DNA from: Pseudomonadota bacterium
Lineage (GTDB): Bacteria; Pseudomonadota; Gammaproteobacteria; Xanthomonadales; SZUA-38
NCBI GenBank assembly: GCA_039033415.1
Contig: JBCCCR010000017.1
Location: forward strand, 1 to 64,000
DNA length: 64,000 bases
Reading direction: 5' to 3'
Part shown: in pieces, positions 45,948 through 54,016 of the stretch
Numbering within the stretch: position 1 is the stretch's first letter
How the letters are laid out: every line of letters starts with the position of its first letter
Made by a program: the position numbers and the translations under genes
Notes under the pieces: generated by a model
What the model saw: the letters and a program-made list of their open reading frames with translations, nothing else
What the model was told of the DNA's origin: nothing
The model's database searches: none

Positions 45948-46631
45948 ATGCACATCGAACCGGGCGTCGTCGACGGCACCAAAATTTTGCTCTCGTATGC
46001 GACCGCGGCCGGTGCGGGAGGCCTCGCTGTTGCCATGGCCAGGGAAACCATCAAGAGCGACGGTGGTTTCGGGGCACTGATCACACGAAGCGTGCTGGCG
46101 ACGGCATGCGTGTTTTGTTTTTTCGAGGTGCTGTTCAAATATCCTGTCGGCGTATCGGAGGTACATCTCATCCTGGGCGCTACGCTGTACCTGATTCTTG
46201 GTGCTGGCCCCACCGCCATCGGGCTTGCGCTGGGACTGCTGGCGCAGGGGCTGATATTTGCGCCTTTGGATCTGCCCCAATATTTTATGAACGTTACAAC
46301 GCTGATCGTGCCGCTCTGGGCCGTTTCGCGTTTGTCCAGGCGCATCGTGCCTGTGGGCACCGCGTACGTTGATCTCCGATACCGACAGGTCTTGGCCCTT
46401 TCCGGAGTCTACCAGGGTGGCATCATCGCCTGGGTCGCGTTCTGGGCCTTCTACGGCCAAGGTTTCGGCGCGGAAAACCTCGCCAATATCGCAGCGTTTG
46501 GTGGCGCTTACCTGACGGTGATCGTGCTCGAGCCACTGATCGAACTCGCTGCGCTGGCTGCGGTAAAGCGCTTCGGGGATCTTTCGATCCCGCCGACGCT
46601 GCACACCCGTCGGCTTCGCCACGCCGGCTGA
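45948..46631 (+). CDS. cbiM: CbiM-type cobalt ECF-transporter membrane protein
   Basis: A 227-residue protein with about six transmembrane helices. It begins MHIEPGVVDGTKILLSYATA, matching the family's metal-binding N-terminus, where the amino group, His2 and a following His bind Co(II). It continues with a CbiM-like FEVLFKYPVGVSEVHLILG. It would bring cobalt into the cell. No CbiN, CbiQ or CbiO is present in the window, although solitary CbiM-type permeases occur. The ATG is preceded by AGGAGA. It converges on the end of the cobN/chlI operon and is its natural functional partner. Confidence 0.88.
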   Translation: MHIEPGVVDGTKILLSYATAAGAGGLAVAMARETIKSDGGFGALITRSVLATACVFCFFEVLFKYPVGVSEVHLILGATLYLILGAGPTAIGLALGLLAQGLIFAPLDLPQYFMNVTTLIVPLWAVSRLSRRIVPVGTAYVDLRYRQVLALSGVYQGGIIAWVAFWAFYGQGFGAENLANIAAFGGAYLTVIVLEPLIELAALAAVKRFGDLSIPPTLHTRRLRHAG

Positions 46632-46686: not shown

Positions 46687-47379
46687 TCAGACCGTCGGCC
46701 ACACCAGGTCACGAGCTCGAAGATGTGTAGCGCCCCAACGCTGAGCCAGTGCATGGCTGCGTCCAGCCGGGACAACGCTTTCTTCGCAGTCGACTAAGAC
46801 ACACCAGTCCGACTCCGGGGGCACTGGCGGGAGGCTTGAAAAACGGCCGTCACTCAGCAACCAGCAATGGATCCTTAACGCCGGGGAGCGGCTCCTAAGG
46901 CGCCGCATCGTCCTGTCTACCAGTTGAATTCCTGAGGACAGCGGCGTTCCGCCTCCGCCAGGGATGCGATCAATCCACTCTCGTATCCGAGCACCTGTCC
47001 CTGGCGCCTTCAAAAGCTGCGCACCGTCGCCGCCAAAGCTGATGACAACGAGCGGGTCGGCGCGTCGGTTGAGCTGGTCACACCAACCCGCCAGCAGCGC
47101 TTTGGCTAGCGCAAGCCCACCGTGGCGAAGCATCGACGCTGAGCAGTCGATCAAAAAAGCGTGGAGGGTTTGCTCCCGCCCCGACCGCTCACGATATTGC
47201 AGGTGGTCTTCCTCAAGCGGCTGCGGGCCTTTTTCGGCCAGTGTTCCAGGCCAATTAATAGATTCCTGAGAGCCGACTCGAGTTATTTGCAGCGGGCCCG
47301 GAACCCGCTTTGCTGACTGTTTGCTGTTCCTGGCAGCGGGCTCTGTCCGGGTGCCCCGTTGCCAGGTCAGGGCTTTTTT
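46687..47379 (-). CDS. chlD: ChlD-type von Willebrand domain, reached by -1 frameshift
   Basis: This is the von Willebrand A portion of a cobaltochelatase D subunit. It has the MIDAS motif LIDCSASML, then the second MIDAS Thr in GGGGTPLSSG, and SDGRFS. The linker before it (SINWPGTLAEKG and HLQYRERSGREQTL) is also typical of ChlD/BchD proteins. The frame is open from about 47450 but contains no ATG or GTG before the MIDAS motif; the only candidate is a TTG at 47154, one codon before it. The frame overlaps the end of chlI in the -1 register at the A AAA AAG site (47379-47373). A -1 shift would give a chlI-chlD fusion of about 614 residues. Confidence 0.85.
   Translation of the reverse strand, partial: KKALTWQRGTRTEPAARNSKQSAKRVPGPLQITRVGSQESINWPGTLAEKGPQPLEEDHLQYRERSGREQTLHAFLIDCSASMLRHGGLALAKALLAGWCDQLNRRADPLVVISFGGDGAQLLKAPGTGARIREWIDRIPGGGGTPLSSGIQLVDRTMRRLRSRSPALRIHCWLLSDGRFSSLPPVPPESDWCVLVDCEESVVPAGRSHALAQRWGATHLRARDLVWPTV
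47329..47379 (-). promoter_or_regulatory. -1 frameshift signal: slippery heptamer and stem-loop
   Basis: On the minus strand the chlI frame reads CCA AAA AAG CCC TGA, placing A AAA AAG (47379-47373) in the in-frame position required for -1 slippage. This is the same heptamer used by E. coli dnaX. After a 6-nt spacer, CCTGGCA (47366-47360) pairs perfectly with TGCCAGG (47335-47329), and an inner GGGC/GCCC helix strengthens it. This matches the spacing of known -1 stimulatory stem-loops. No clear upstream Shine-Dalgarno-like stimulator was seen at the usual distance. Confidence 0.75.
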
Positions 47380-48530
47380 GGCGGTACCGGAATCGGCCGT
47401 ACGCCCTTCACCGCGGCCCTGGGCGGGCTGCGGGGAGCGCGAAGCTCACCCCAATCGACGTCCGACGACCGATTGCTCGTTTCGCGTGTCGGTCCGTCAG
47501 CTGAATCGCCGGCCGATTCACCTGCGGATTGTTGCGGTGGCTCACCCGGTGTCGCCATGTCGGCCTCTGCAGGCTGCCCCGCCGACTTCGCTTGCGGGTG
47601 TTGCGTATGAATATCGCCCTCGTCTCTGTTCGTCGCCGCCTCGCGATTCGCTGGCAACCCGTCACGTCGACGGTGGGCCAACACCCAGGGCTCTACGCGG
47701 TTAAAGTCCATTTCCGTGATGTTTGTGCGGCCCTCAAGCGCGGCATGAGCGCGCGCGGCTCGCAAAAGCGTCAGGTCCGCCCGCACGCCTTCCACCTGGG
47801 CCTGGCTGCAACGCTCGCTCACCCGGGCGATCTGCGAGCTTGTGAAGTCCATGAGTTGCAGTTTTTTTCTCGCCGTGGACACCTGCTCGCGCAGCGCTGC
47901 CTCCTGTGATGCCTGAGCTTCGACGAAGGCCTTCGGGTTTTGATCGAAGGCGAGCCGGGTAGTCACGATGCGCTCTCGAGTGGCAAGGTCAGGTGCGTCT
48001 TCAAGCGCCACGAACAGCCCAAAGCGGTCGAGGAGCTGCGGTCGAAGCTCGCCCTCTTCGGGATTCATAGTCCCGATCAGCACTACGCGTGCCTCGTGAG
48101 AATGGGAGATACCGTCGCGTTCAATAATGTTGACGCCGCTGGCACTCACGTCCAGCAGCAGGTCAACCAGATGGTCAGCTAGCAGGTTGACCTCATCAAC
48201 GTAGAGTACGCCGCCATGAGCCTGCGCCAGCAGCCCTGGCTGGAACTGCACCCCCGCACCCTTGAGCGCGGCGTCGATGTCCAGCGAACCGACCAGCTTT
48301 TCCTCGCTAGCGGCGAGCGGCAGATTCACAAAACGCCCGGCTGGCAGCAGCGCAGCGAGAGCGCGAGCGCTCGTGGACTTTGCGGTGCCGCGAGGTCCCT
48401 GGATCAGCAGGCCGCCGATCATCGGGTCAATGGCACAGAGCAGCAGCGCGCACTGAAGATCGGCCTGCCCCTGAAGAGCTGAGAATGGGAAGCTGACCCG
48501 CACCTCCGGGGCCTGTTTGTCGGCCGTCAT
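47367..48530 (-). CDS. chlI: Cobaltochelatase ATPase subunit, ChlI-like
   Basis: A 387-residue AAA+ protein. Walker A is GPRGTAKST, Walker B GGVLYVDEVNLL, followed by SGVNIIERDGISHSHEARV, IGTMNPEEGELRPQLLDRFG and a sensor 2 region (RADLTLLRAARAHAAL). These are the ChlI/BchI/CobS-like blocks; it would hydrolyse ATP to drive CobN. The C-terminus (from about 320) is a low-complexity linker rich in Pro, Ser and Glu, such as ChlD proteins have, ending PVPPKKP just past the slippery site. ATG 48530 has GAGGAG eight bases upstream. It lies 42 nt after cobN. Confidence 0.93.
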   Translation of the reverse strand: MTADKQAPEVRVSFPFSALQGQADLQCALLLCAIDPMIGGLLIQGPRGTAKSTSARALAALLPAGRFVNLPLAASEEKLVGSLDIDAALKGAGVQFQPGLLAQAHGGVLYVDEVNLLADHLVDLLLDVSASGVNIIERDGISHSHEARVVLIGTMNPEEGELRPQLLDRFGLFVALEDAPDLATRERIVTTRLAFDQNPKAFVEAQASQEAALREQVSTARKKLQLMDFTSSQIARVSERCSQAQVEGVRADLTLLRAARAHAALEGRTNITEMDFNRVEPWVLAHRRRDGLPANREAATNRDEGDIHTQHPQAKSAGQPAEADMATPGEPPQQSAGESAGDSADGPTRETSNRSSDVDWGELRAPRSPPRAAVKGVRPIPVPPKKP

Positions 48531-48572
48531 TACTGGACTCCTCTCATGGCCTGCTCGATCCACGCACCTTGC

Positions 48573-51500
48573 CTACCCTTCCACCAGCTGTTCGGTTTCC
48601 AGCAGGTGCTGCTGGAGCGCCTGTTCGTAGGATCCAGGCTCTTGCCACAGGCCGCGCTGGATGGCTTCCAGCAGGCGCTCGCAGATGTCATGGAGTGCGT
48701 CTGGATTATGCGCCCTTAGAAAACCTCGGCTTTTGTCATCGATCACGTAGGCGTCGGTAACGGCTTCATACTGGTCGTCGCGCACCACGCGTGCCGTTGC
48801 GTCATAGGCAAAGAGATAGTCGACCGTCGCCGCCATCTCGAAAGCACCTTTGTAGCCGTGACGCTGCACGCCGGTAATCCACTTTGGATTCGTCACTCGC
48901 GCACGCATCACCCGACTGATTTCCTGCTCGAGCGACCTCACGCGCGGGGTTGCCGGATTGCTATGATCGCCAAAATATATCCGCGGCTGCTCGCCTCGGT
49001 AGTGGCGCACGGCGGCGGTCATGCCGCCCTGAAACTGATAATAGTCGTCCGAGTCCAGCAGGTCGTGTTCTCGGTTATCCTGGTTTTGCAATACCAGATC
49101 GATCTGAGCCAGGCGCGCAACAAACTGGTCGCGAGCGTCAGCGCCATAATCCTGCTGGCCATAGGCAAAGCCTCCCCAATTTCGGAAAGCACTTGCCAGA
49201 TCTCCGTCGTCCTGCCAGTTGCGGCTATCGATCAACCCCTGCAGTCCTGCGCCATACGCGCCGGGTTTCGCGCCATAGACTCGAAAGCCGGCGATTCGCC
49301 GCGCGTCGTCTTCAGCAACCCCGTTGGCTCTGAGGGCCTGAGTCTCGGCAGCAATTCGCGCTCGGATCGGGTTATCTTCCGGGGCTTCGTTCAAGTCAGC
49401 AACGGCCTGAATGGCCGCATCAAAAAGACGGACGACGTTGGCGAAGGCATCACGGAAAAAACCCGACACGCGCAGCGTTACGTCAACGCGTGGGCGGTCG
49501 ATCAGGTCCAGCGGCAAAATCTCAAAGTCGGTGACCCGATTGCTGCCGCTCGCCCACTTCGGGCGTGCTCCGATCAGTGCAAAAGCCTGTGCAATATCGT
49601 CTCCCCCCGTCCGCATCGTGGAGGTACCCCAGACAGAAAGGCCAATGGCACGCGGGTAGTCACCTTCTTCCTGCTGATACTTTTCCAGCAGCTGAGCGGC
49701 TGATTTCCAGCCGAGCAGCCAGCTGGTAGCCGTGGGGATGGCGCGCGTATCGACGGAGTAAAAATTGCGGCCCGTCGGCAAAACATCGGGTCGGCCCCTC
49801 GACGGCGCGCCGCTAGGTCCGGGCGGAACGAAGCGGCCGGACAGTCCGTTGATCAGCTGCGCAAGCTCCTGCTCCCCACAGGCGTCCAGCCGTGGAGCCA
49901 GATCCGACCAAAGACGTTTGAGCACCTTAGCGGTGGCGTACCAGCCGCGTTTCTCGGCTGAGTCTGGTGGGGCTTTCTCATCGATCAGGCTTTGCGCCAG
50001 GAGTTCCAGCCGCTCACGGGTGTGCCCACCGTTACGCCACCGGGTTCTTGTGTCCAGCGCCTTGAGTGCGACGGGCTGCGGCCCGGTCCAGGGCGCATCC
50101 CAGGTCGCGTCGAGCGGGTCGAAGTCGGTTGACTCAAGCAGGTCATCGGCAAGCGCTCGGATGAGGCTCGCGTTTTCTTCGGTGCCGCTGCCCGCCGGAT
50201 AACGGGCCAGCGCGAGCAGCGTATCGCGCGACAGGCGGCCAGCGGGGGACTGGCCGAACACGTGCAGGCCGTCGCGGATCTGGCTTTCTTTGAGTTCGCA
50301 AAGGTAGGCGTCGGTGCTGTTGAGCAATGCCTGCTCGTCGTCGCTGCTGGCGGGTGCCGGTAGCCCGAGATCAGCGTGTAGATTTTGACCTAGCACGTGC
50401 TCCAGGATCTGCCGGCGAAGCAGCGTTGCGCGGCGTGGATCCATAGTGATTGCGTCATAGTATTCATCTAGAAGACGCTCGAGATCCTGCAGCGGCCCGT
50501 AGTTCTCCGCCCGCGTCAGTGGCGGCATCAGATGATCAATGATCACGGCCTGGGCGCGTCGCTTCGCCTGAGTGCCCTCACCGGGGTCGTTTACGATAAA
50601 CGGATACAGGTGCGGTGTGGGTCCAAGCGCCAGGTCGGGCCAGCAGGTGTCGCCGAGGGCCACACTCTTTCCCGGCAGCCACTCGAGGTTGCCGTGTTTA
50701 CCCACGTGGACGACAGCATCGCAGGCGAACACCTCCCGCAGCCAGCAGTAGAAGGCCAGGTAGGCGTGTGGCGGAACGAGGTCCGGGTCGTGATAGTTTG
50801 CCATCGCATCCAGGTGATAGCCGCGCGCGGGCTGGATGCCGACAAAAACCTGCCCGCAACGGAGTCCGGCGATCATGAACCGACCGTCACGCACCATCGG
50901 GTCATCCTCAGGGCGGCCCCAGCGGGCCACAATGGCCTCGCGATTGTCTGCCGGCAGGCCGGCAAAAAAGTTTTCGTAAGCCTCCATGGCGAGGCTCTGC
51001 AACGCTGGTCGCATGGGCCAGTTGCCGGGATCGTTTGTGACGCCGGATTTCAGGCGTTGCATCAGTGCGTCCCCGCTTTCGGGGATGGCGTCGACGGCAT
51101 AGCCTTGGTTGAGAAGCCTGCGAAGGATCCCAACGACGGACGCCGGCGTATCCAGACCCACGCCGTTGCCCATGCGCCCTTCGCGGGTGGGATAGTTCGC
51201 GAGGATGAGCGCGATGCGCTTGTCCTCGTTCGGCTTGCGGCGCAGCACGCACCATGCCTCGGCTAGTCGCGCCACAAAAGCCAGCCGTTCCGCGTGCGGC
51301 TGATAGCGCACGACGTCAGACTCCGTGTGCTCGCAGTGGTAGGCCAGGCCTTTAAAGCTGACGGCTCGCGTAATGATTCTTCCGTCCACCTCTGGCATCG
51401 CCACGTGCATTGCGATATCTCTGGCCCGCAGCCCCTGTGCATCTTCCTCCCACGTATCTCGATTGTCGCCACTCATGATGAGCTGAAGCACAGGCAGGTC

Positions 51501-52391
51501 AGCAACCAACGAAGCTGGCGAGTCACTGTCCATTGTGCTCACCGCAAAGGCCGTACTGTTCAGCACAAGCTCGGCTTCTGCCAGCCCACATAATTCGCGC
51601 AGCGTGGATTGGCACAGTGGATCTTTCAGCGATACCAACGCAATCGGCAGAGGGTTAAGCCCTCTCTCCAGGAGCGATTCGCAGAGCGCCTCGAAGACCT
51701 GTGTATTTCCAGCCTGCAGGTGCGAGCGATAGAAAATGATCGCAACCACCGGTGCATCAGCGTGCCAGTGTTCGCGCCAGCTATCGATCGAAGCAAGCGG
51801 CACCGCCGGATGAAAAACCGAAATTGCCGGCAGCGGCTTAGCGGGTAAAATCGGAGCGTCGAGCTGAAAGAACTCACGCCCGATACAGGCATAAAACTGT
51901 CGCGCGTTGTCGGCACCACCCTCGCGAAGGTAGCGCCAAAGCTGGCGACAAAGCTCAGCGGGCGCTGTGCTCTTGGCGATCAGGTTGTCGTCTTCGCTGC
52001 CGTCACCGGAAAACATCACCAGCTGGATGCCGCGATCGCGGCAAAGGCGCACCAGACATTCCGTTCCGTAGGGCCAATAGCTTTCCCCGCCGAGATGATC
52101 GACCACAATAAGCTTGGCGTGCTGAAGCACCTCATCGATGTACAGGTCGATAGACGCGTGCTGTCGAAGATGCAGTAGGTTGGCGAGCCGAACTTCCGGA
52201 TAGGCAGCCATCCAGGGCGCTGGTTCGCGATCCGACTCAATAGAATCACGCGCGGGATGCATGGCCGCTAGCAGCCCGAGCGTGGTGTCGGCGGCGCTTA
52301 GGATCACTACCTCTGCGGGTGTTTGCCCCAGGCTCGTGGTCACCGTCTCGTCGTCGACGTACCCTCCGGGTTTTGCGGCCAGCAGGTGCAA
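48573..52391 (-). CDS. cobN: Cobaltochelatase large subunit CobN
   Basis: A 1272-residue protein, matching the usual CobN length. CobN binds hydrogenobyrinic acid a,c-diamide and inserts Co(II), with the ATPase and D subunits encoded downstream. Visible family blocks are LANYPTREGRMGNGVGLDTPAS, VVHVGKHGNLEWLPGKSVAL, YPFIVNDPGEGTQAKRRAQA and GRDPSGRNFY-like PTGRNFYSVDTRAIPT. The start is TTG, with AGGAG about nine bases upstream, directly after cobW. No genes for making the corrin ring are in the window. Its substrate may be made elsewhere or imported; that is open. Confidence 0.95.
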   Translation of the reverse strand: MHLLAAKPGGYVDDETVTTSLGQTPAEVVILSAADTTLGLLAAMHPARDSIESDREPAPWMAAYPEVRLANLLHLRQHASIDLYIDEVLQHAKLIVVDHLGGESYWPYGTECLVRLCRDRGIQLVMFSGDGSEDDNLIAKSTAPAELCRQLWRYLREGGADNARQFYACIGREFFQLDAPILPAKPLPAISVFHPAVPLASIDSWREHWHADAPVVAIIFYRSHLQAGNTQVFEALCESLLERGLNPLPIALVSLKDPLCQSTLRELCGLAEAELVLNSTAFAVSTMDSDSPASLVADLPVLQLIMSGDNRDTWEEDAQGLRARDIAMHVAMPEVDGRIITRAVSFKGLAYHCEHTESDVVRYQPHAERLAFVARLAEAWCVLRRKPNEDKRIALILANYPTREGRMGNGVGLDTPASVVGILRRLLNQGYAVDAIPESGDALMQRLKSGVTNDPGNWPMRPALQSLAMEAYENFFAGLPADNREAIVARWGRPEDDPMVRDGRFMIAGLRCGQVFVGIQPARGYHLDAMANYHDPDLVPPHAYLAFYCWLREVFACDAVVHVGKHGNLEWLPGKSVALGDTCWPDLALGPTPHLYPFIVNDPGEGTQAKRRAQAVIIDHLMPPLTRAENYGPLQDLERLLDEYYDAITMDPRRATLLRRQILEHVLGQNLHADLGLPAPASSDDEQALLNSTDAYLCELKESQIRDGLHVFGQSPAGRLSRDTLLALARYPAGSGTEENASLIRALADDLLESTDFDPLDATWDAPWTGPQPVALKALDTRTRWRNGGHTRERLELLAQSLIDEKAPPDSAEKRGWYATAKVLKRLWSDLAPRLDACGEQELAQLINGLSGRFVPPGPSGAPSRGRPDVLPTGRNFYSVDTRAIPTATSWLLGWKSAAQLLEKYQQEEGDYPRAIGLSVWGTSTMRTGGDDIAQAFALIGARPKWASGSNRVTDFEILPLDLIDRPRVDVTLRVSGFFRDAFANVVRLFDAAIQAVADLNEAPEDNPIRARIAAETQALRANGVAEDDARRIAGFRVYGAKPGAYGAGLQGLIDSRNWQDDGDLASAFRNWGGFAYGQQDYGADARDQFVARLAQIDLVLQNQDNREHDLLDSDDYYQFQGGMTAAVRHYRGEQPRIYFGDHSNPATPRVRSLEQEISRVMRARVTNPKWITGVQRHGYKGAFEMAATVDYLFAYDATARVVRDDQYEAVTDAYVIDDKSRGFLRAHNPDALHDICERLLEAIQRGLWQEPGSYEQALQQHLLETEQLVEG

Positions 52392-52394
52392 AAA

Positions 52395-53522
52395 TCAGCG
52401 CTCCTGCTGCGCTGCGGCTGGCGCCAACGCGGCTTCAAGCGCGCCACGGTCCAGGTGGCGGCCAATGAAAACAAGACTACTGTACGGCGTCTCGTCGTCT
52501 CTCCAGCGCCGGTCGAAATAGTTTTCAAACCGCCGCCCCACCCCGTGAACAACCAGACGCATCGGCTTGTTGGCGAGCGCGACGAAACCCTTCACTCGAT
52601 AGATGGTGTGTGTTTCGACGAGTGTCTGCAAAGCTGCCTGCAGACGATCTCGGTCCATCACCGGCAATCCAATCACCAGCGAGTCAAAGTGGTCATGGCC
52701 ATGATCATGATCATGATCGTGGTCATGGTCATGGTCGTGGTCGTGGTGGTGATCGTGATGGCTGGGGCGCAAATGGATCTGCGTCTCAGCCTCGCAGTTA
52801 AGGCCAAGCATCAGGCCGAGGTCCACGCCGCCAGCATCGCTGTGCACCACCTTCACCGGCGCCGGCACCTCCTTTCGCACCATCGCTTCGACCTGCTCAC
52901 TGGTTCCGGCGTCGACGATGTCCGTCTTACTGAGGATCACCAGGTCTGCGGCGCTGAGCTGATCCTCAAACAGCTCGTGCAGTGCGGGATCGTGGTCAAG
53001 GTTTGGATCGGCGGAACGCTGAAGCTCGACCGCGCCCGGATCAGCGGCAAACCGCCCCTCGGCTACCGCGGGCGTATCCACGACGGTGACCACCGCATCC
53101 ACGGTGCAGGCGTTGCGGATTTCGGGCCAGTTGAAGGCCTGAACTAGCGGTTTGGGTAAGGCAAGGCCGGAGGTTTCGATCAGGATATGATCGATCTCGT
53201 CGCGGCGCTCAACAAGTTCACGCATGACGGGGAAGAACTCCTCCTGCACCGTGCAGCACAGGCAGCCGTTTGCCAGCTCGTAAAGCTGACCACCCTGCTC
53301 TCCGCCAGCGTCACTGTCGTCTTCACAGCCGAGCCCGCAGCCGCGCAGGATGTCACCGTCGATACCGAGTTCACCGAATTCGTTCACAATTACGGCAACC
53401 CGCAAGCCGTCGTTGTTGTTCAGCAGATTTCGCAGCAGCGTCGTTTTACCGCTTCCGAGAAAGCCGGTCACAATCGTTGCGGGAATCCTCTGGTGTGTCT
53501 TGCTCCCGAGGGTGCTGGTCAT
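52395..53522 (-). CDS. cobW: CobW-type G3E GTPase (COG0523 metallochaperone)
   Basis: A 375-residue GTPase. Walker [16 protein letters not shown], the CxCC metal motif GCLCCTVQ, Walker [11 protein letters not shown] and the SKTD base motif are intact. A long His-Asp-rich run (HDHHHDHD repeated) near residue 240-265 is a metal-storage or sensing loop typical of CobW and related G3E proteins. It is thought to load cobalt for the chelatase. ATG 53522 overlaps the preceding DUF1636 stop (ATGA). The DNA of the His-rich run is a short tandem repeat, which is a likely site of slippage. Confidence 0.94.
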
Positions 53523-54016
53523 GGTTCCTGGTTCTCCTGGTTGAGCGTTGGCAGCACCGGAAAACGGGCGACAAATTTGCCTCGCACGCCATCCGGCCAT
53601 TGTTTGAACGGAACTTCACCGGTGTGTGAGGCCCGGTAAAGCAACGCGTAGTCGATCAGGGTTTGTACGCTGGCCGAGTCGGGCTTGAGGTCACCCACCG
53701 TGTAGCCGATTTTGCCGAGGCCGCGCACCTGTGCAGTGCAGCCACGCTTGCAGGCCATCAGACAGCGAAAGGGATGTACCTCAAGGTCAGCCAGCGCCGC
53801 GGCGCGCTGCATTTCGACGTTGTCTGTCGCTGCCTGGGTTTCGCGGCTCAATGCTCGCGTGAGCGACTCTCCGAGCCGCTTGCCTGGCCGAACCGCATCC
53901 GGGTTTTCGGCGTCGTAGCCGCACGTCTCGCAGACAAAGATGACGGTCGGCGTGCCGCTTGCCGCGTCGTTTACGCCCTCTTCGGAGTTGGCGGCTGCGG
54001 ATTCATTTGATGCCAA
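53519..54016 (-). CDS. DUF1636 thioredoxin-like, cysteine-rich protein
   Basis: A 165-residue protein with two cysteine clusters: [11 protein letters not shown] and [15 protein letters not shown]. Both match the DUF1636 pattern, a thioredoxin-like [2Fe-2S] ferredoxin fold found in cobalamin clusters. The Met before it is TTG (54016), with AGGAG upstream. It overlaps the cobW start by 4 nt. A role in cobalt handling or in chelatase maturation is inferred from context only. Confidence 0.85.

Follow-up and report, generated by a model that had tools for sequence, protein, structure and literature searches.

A chlI-chlD gene very probably read by programmed -1 ribosomal frameshifting beside cobN in a phototrophic bacterium

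In a stretch of 64,000 nucleotides from a Pseudomonadota genome (hereafter the window), chlI and chlD very probably make up one gene, fs-chlD, which is read by programmed -1 ribosomal frameshifting and whose products would act together with CobN. A first-pass annotation had proposed that such a shift joins the two reading frames, and this reading was borne out by the conservation in relatives of a slippery heptamer, of the chlI stop and of a downstream hairpin, and by conserved protein that the -1 frame encodes ahead of the only rival start codon.

Reading frames and signals at the shift site

All the elements of the shift site named in the first-pass annotation were found where it had placed them, on the minus strand (Table 1). 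The phase was re-derived from the sequence, with the zero-frame codons at the end of chlI reading CCG CCA AAA AAG CCC TGA, and the A AAA AAG heptamer fits the X XXY YYZ pattern in the phase proposed. Also as described there, it is followed by a 6-nt spacer (CCCTGA, which includes the chlI stop) and by a 7-bp stem with an inner 4-bp helix, in which CCTGGCA (47366-47360) pairs perfectly with TGCCAGG (47335-47329); an outer 3-bp CUG/CAG helix is possible around it. The frame of the von Willebrand (VWA) part has no usable ATG or GTG and yet, as had been noticed, is open back into the end of chlI. It begins 76 nt before the chlI stop and runs on past the end of the VWA domain, with no ATG, GTG or TTG between the heptamer and the TTG at 47154. 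After the slip it reads KKALTWQR... and contains the VWA domain. In a profile search the chlI part matched TIGR02442 (E 1.5e-114), AAA_lid_2 and Mg_chelatase, and TIGR02442 covered the ChlI and ChlD parts in the correct order, each part, scored separately, lying below the whole-protein cut-off.

Table 1. Coordinates of the chlI-chlD shift site and of the neighbouring cob genes in the window
Feature	Position	Strand	Remarks
-1 frame after slippage	46687..47379	-	linker and VWA domain of the ChlD C-terminal part; 230 residues counted from the two shift-site lysines
TTG codon	47152..47154	-	sole start-type codon of the VWA frame past the chlI stop; encodes a residue in beta strand 1 of the VWA domain
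Candidate stimulatory hairpin	47329..47366	-	47366-47360 paired with 47335-47329 (7 bp); inner 4-bp helix within the 24-nt loop
chlI stop TGA	47367..47369	-	one sense codon past the heptamer; spacing to the heptamer identical in 79/80 loci
chlI zero frame	47367..48563	-	AAA+ ATPase domain and linker, 398 aa, ending ...PVPPKKP-stop
Slippery heptamer A AAA AAG	47373..47379	-	X XXY YYZ phase; A AAA AAR kept in 79/80 loci
cobN	48573..52391	-	cobalt chelatase large subunit; TIGR02257, 1583.7 bits (cut-off 822)
cobW	52395..53600	-	TIGR02475, 478 bits (cut-off 332)

RNA folding gave the window hairpin a minimum free energy (MFE) of -22 kcal/mol (z = -1.89). Watson-Crick stems of 7 bp or more, starting 5-9 nt past the heptamer, occurred in 1.8% of dinucleotide shuffles and in 1.9% of background windows, and we therefore rejected the stem alone as strong evidence, about 2% of random stretches matching it. 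Since, in addition, A AAA AAR is present several more times within the 64-kb window outside the shift site, the local features by themselves are suggestive, short of compelling.

According to the mechanism we propose, ribosomes that stay in frame would read CCA AAA AAG CCC TGA and stop, yielding the small subunit, an AAA+ protein of 398 aa that ends in a linker tail. Some ribosomes would be delayed by the hairpin past the stop; both of their lysine tRNAs would move back by one base and re-pair on A AAA AAG, after which translation would continue as A L T W... and enter the VWA domain, yielding a ChlID fusion of ~625 aa, the putative medium subunit. Both products would serve the adjacently encoded CobN in an aerobic cobalt chelatase. 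That the shift occurs in this host, in what proportion the two products arise and that they act on cobalt is inferred; slippage itself has been shown in E. coli for homologous cassettes of this family, three of which gave 63, 40 and 10% frameshifting (PMC3711429).

Conservation across relatives and rival readings

Searches at the genus and family levels gave no orthologue (one member of the same genus and two other members of the family lacked the frameshifted gene), and a search of the order yielded few and distant ones, with a related VWA part in only 4 of 299 genomes, the window's own genome included. Conservation was therefore tested in other orders. A scan of public genomes gave 80 loci with ChlI relatives, which were analysed along with two plasmid loci, one locus from a genome of the same order and the window. 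The set in -1 relation amounted to 80 loci (79 relatives and the window), all with an out-of-frame VWA continuation. Nearest in ChlI were Zoogloeaceae, Comamonas and Pseudomonas benzenivorans; identity between the window's ChlI and those of the relatives is only about 54-67%, with 67% for Denitromonas.

The heptamer was in phase at every one of the 80 loci, being A AAA AAG in 53, A AAA AAA in 26 and C CCA AAA in one, and in 79 of them it stood at position -10 before the chlI stop, the remaining locus having it at -7. Its conservation across these loci indicates that the shift site is non-random. A hairpin followed the heptamer at the homologous place in nearly all loci. Perfect stems at the stop had a median length of 13 bp, and the median MFE was -32 kcal/mol; the corresponding values for control stretches from these loci were 7 bp and -21 kcal/mol. 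Its arms differ in sequence between lineages and keep their complementarity (GGCATTC/GAATGCC, GCCATCG/CGATGGC, CGCGTCC/GGACGCG and, as in the window, CCTGGCA/TGCCAGG). The window stem (7 bp, MFE -22 kcal/mol) lies at the weak end of the relatives' range, its stability being about that of control stretches. The conservation of heptamer and stem that the first-pass annotation had named as a check was thus found, mostly in relatives from other orders. The same-order relative has the same gene arrangement, with C CCA AAA in place of A AAA AAR and then a strong hairpin of -33 kcal/mol; its genome holds three tRNA-Lys(CUU) genes.

These comparisons also bear on whether the frame break might be a sequencing error or the mark of a decayed gene, as the homopolymer at the break could suggest. 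Both domains are intact and the identical break recurs at the same codon in 79 loci of other genomes, a conservation that refutes this explanation and leaves it practically no chance of being right.

It is likewise exceedingly improbable that RNA polymerase slips on the A6 run and adds an A, so that the fusion would come from an altered mRNA. There is a run of A's at the site, and Thermus dnaX, which uses transcriptional slippage, comes from a host with two lysine tRNAs, like this one. However, A6 is generally considered short for polymerase slippage, and the strict codon phase, the fixed spacing of the stop and the hairpin suit ribosomal slippage, as which the homologous cassettes were scored (PMC3711429).

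The first-pass annotation had named the TTG at 47154 as a rival, and indeed no other codon of start type stands in the VWA frame past the chlI stop and ahead of the VWA core; moreover, the automatic annotation of a Comamonas relative gives the VWA part an independent start. We nevertheless consider it very unlikely that ribosomes re-initiate past the chlI stop, at this TTG or at some other non-AUG codon, and so translate ChlD separately. The TTG lies more than 200 nt beyond that stop and inside beta strand 1 of the VWA domain, and it lacks a well-placed Shine-Dalgarno sequence, the sole purine run, GGGAG, being about 15-18 nt away. The codon aligned with it is not a start in 52 of the 80 loci (mostly ATC, ATT or CTG), and is GTG or TTG in only 28, all of which weakens the rival. 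Furthermore, an alignment of the 80 C-terminal (-1) frames showed that residues upstream of the TTG are conserved, namely W43 (100%), T46 (94%), L47 (97%), L60 (91%) and L72 (98%), all of them lying past the heptamer; the tryptophan W43 is shared by each of the 79 relatives. This conservation of the -1 frame between the heptamer and the TTG argues that translation enters upstream of the TTG and, at the level of sequence, favours entry from chlI.

Gene context and the chelatases of the host

The end of cobN lies 9 bases before the chlI start, with cobW upstream of it, and on the basis of these two neighbours we assign chlI-chlD to an aerobic cobalt chelatase of the vitamin B12 pathway, as its AAA+/VWA part. 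The same strand carries, further upstream, genes for a cob(I)yrinic acid a,c-diamide adenosyltransferase and for a BtuC/BtuD/BtuF-like ABC transporter. In 74 of the relatives' loci cobN likewise stands upstream on the same strand, within ~200 nt. Chl genes fused in one frame, without a frameshift, were found in Marinomonas gallaica and in an alphaproteobacterial MAG, and cobN was absent from the retrieved flanks of these fused loci. Two further observations concern the surroundings of the gene: CobW contains a long histidine-aspartate stretch (17 residues), likely a metal-binding linker, and an open frame on the plus strand (45948-46631), which converges on the chlD end, encodes a hydrophobic, membrane-like protein of 227 aa with no NCBIfam match.

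CobT was not found in the host genome. Contig 8 of the host carries a bacteriochlorophyll cluster with bchXYZ, acsF, puhA, bchI and bchD, and contig 10 encodes a second protein of the CobN/BchH family, which from its context we take as BchH; judging by the bch cluster, the host is phototrophic and has its magnesium chelatase as a separate set of genes. Given the cob neighbours, the lack of CobT and these separate bch chelatase genes, the frameshifted gene most likely belongs to the cobalt set, with the bch genes making up the magnesium set. Considering its distribution, the frameshifted gene was likely gained horizontally.

Known frameshift systems and the lysine tRNAs

Programmed frameshifting of this kind is already known, and the locus is well supported as a new instance of it, as the first-pass annotation had also held. 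A genome survey of 2013 listed 23 such genes in six genera (PMC3711429), and the fs-chlD or 'magnesium chelatase' family has been described from Pseudomonas, Burkholderia, Delftia, Herpetosiphon, Methanocaldococcus and Methanococcus (PMC3711429, PMC5009743, PMC9227772). In a 2016 review A_AAA_AAR was reported to be under strong purifying selection, and the region 3' of it to be structured and poorly conserved (PMC5009743). Frameshifted chlD has been linked to cobalt chelatase and regarded as a means of sparing a separate small-subunit gene (PMC9227772, 2022), and some genomes with fs-chlD also carry a separate chlI (PMC9227772).

By its sequence, the window locus shares the structural features of this family: the chlI/chlD overlap in -1 relation, A AAA AAR, the downstream hairpin, the association with cobN and the existence of fused homologues in other taxa. 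The absence of another small-subunit gene, a tendency of the published set and not strictly defining, does not extend to this genome, which has bchI on contig 8. The window further differs from the family in its phototroph host, which has bchI and bchD as separate genes along with a second gene of the CobN/BchH family, in its weaker hairpin, and in that its A AAA AAG heptamer occurs alongside tRNA-Lys(CUU). With E. coli dnaX it shares A AAA AAG, a downstream hairpin and two products with a common N-terminal part. Slippage in E. coli dnaX yields the shorter product, whereas in chlI-chlD it would yield the longer one, the zero frame stopping one codon past the heptamer; unlike in dnaX, an upstream Shine-Dalgarno stimulator for the heptamer was not clearly seen in the window sequence.

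We counted two points against frameshifting in this host, the weak window stem and the tRNA-Lys(CUU), which may make slippage less frequent by binding AAG tightly. ARAGORN and a pattern search found the latter besides tRNA-Lys(UUU). Genomes with A AAA AAA had the tRNA-Lys(CUU) pattern in 24 of 24 searched (a sample being confirmed by ARAGORN), whereas an ARAGORN-confirmed tRNA-Lys(CUU) was present in only 4 of the 53 with A AAA AAG, namely the window's, Thauera sp. 28 and two Pseudomonas, in which it is seemingly an extra, perhaps mobile copy. Two CTCTTAA matches in Pseudomonas were discarded as not being tRNAs, as were two further candidates (loci L159 and L162). A dedicated tRNA for AAG is expected to dissociate poorly, which may explain why Thermus dnaX is without ribosomal slippage (PMC5009743). 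It is conceivable, if somewhat doubtful, that the last base of the heptamer is adapted to the lysine tRNAs (AAA with CUU, AAG with UUU only), and that the window gene, probably horizontal in origin, is mismatched and slips less; the pattern largely separates Burkholderiaceae from Pseudomonas, and ancestry may explain it.

To summarize what the locus means, it adds another genome in which one gene would yield both the AAA+ and the VWA-bearing subunits of cobalt chelatase, and a case of a phototroph that keeps a frameshifted cobalt set alongside a separate magnesium set. It also serves as a warning, automatic annotation splitting fs-chlD into two genes. That the choice of heptamer may depend on which lysine tRNAs a genome has is a testable lead only, confounded by clade; if such adaptation is true, reduced slipping at the window gene would shift the ratio of the subunits.
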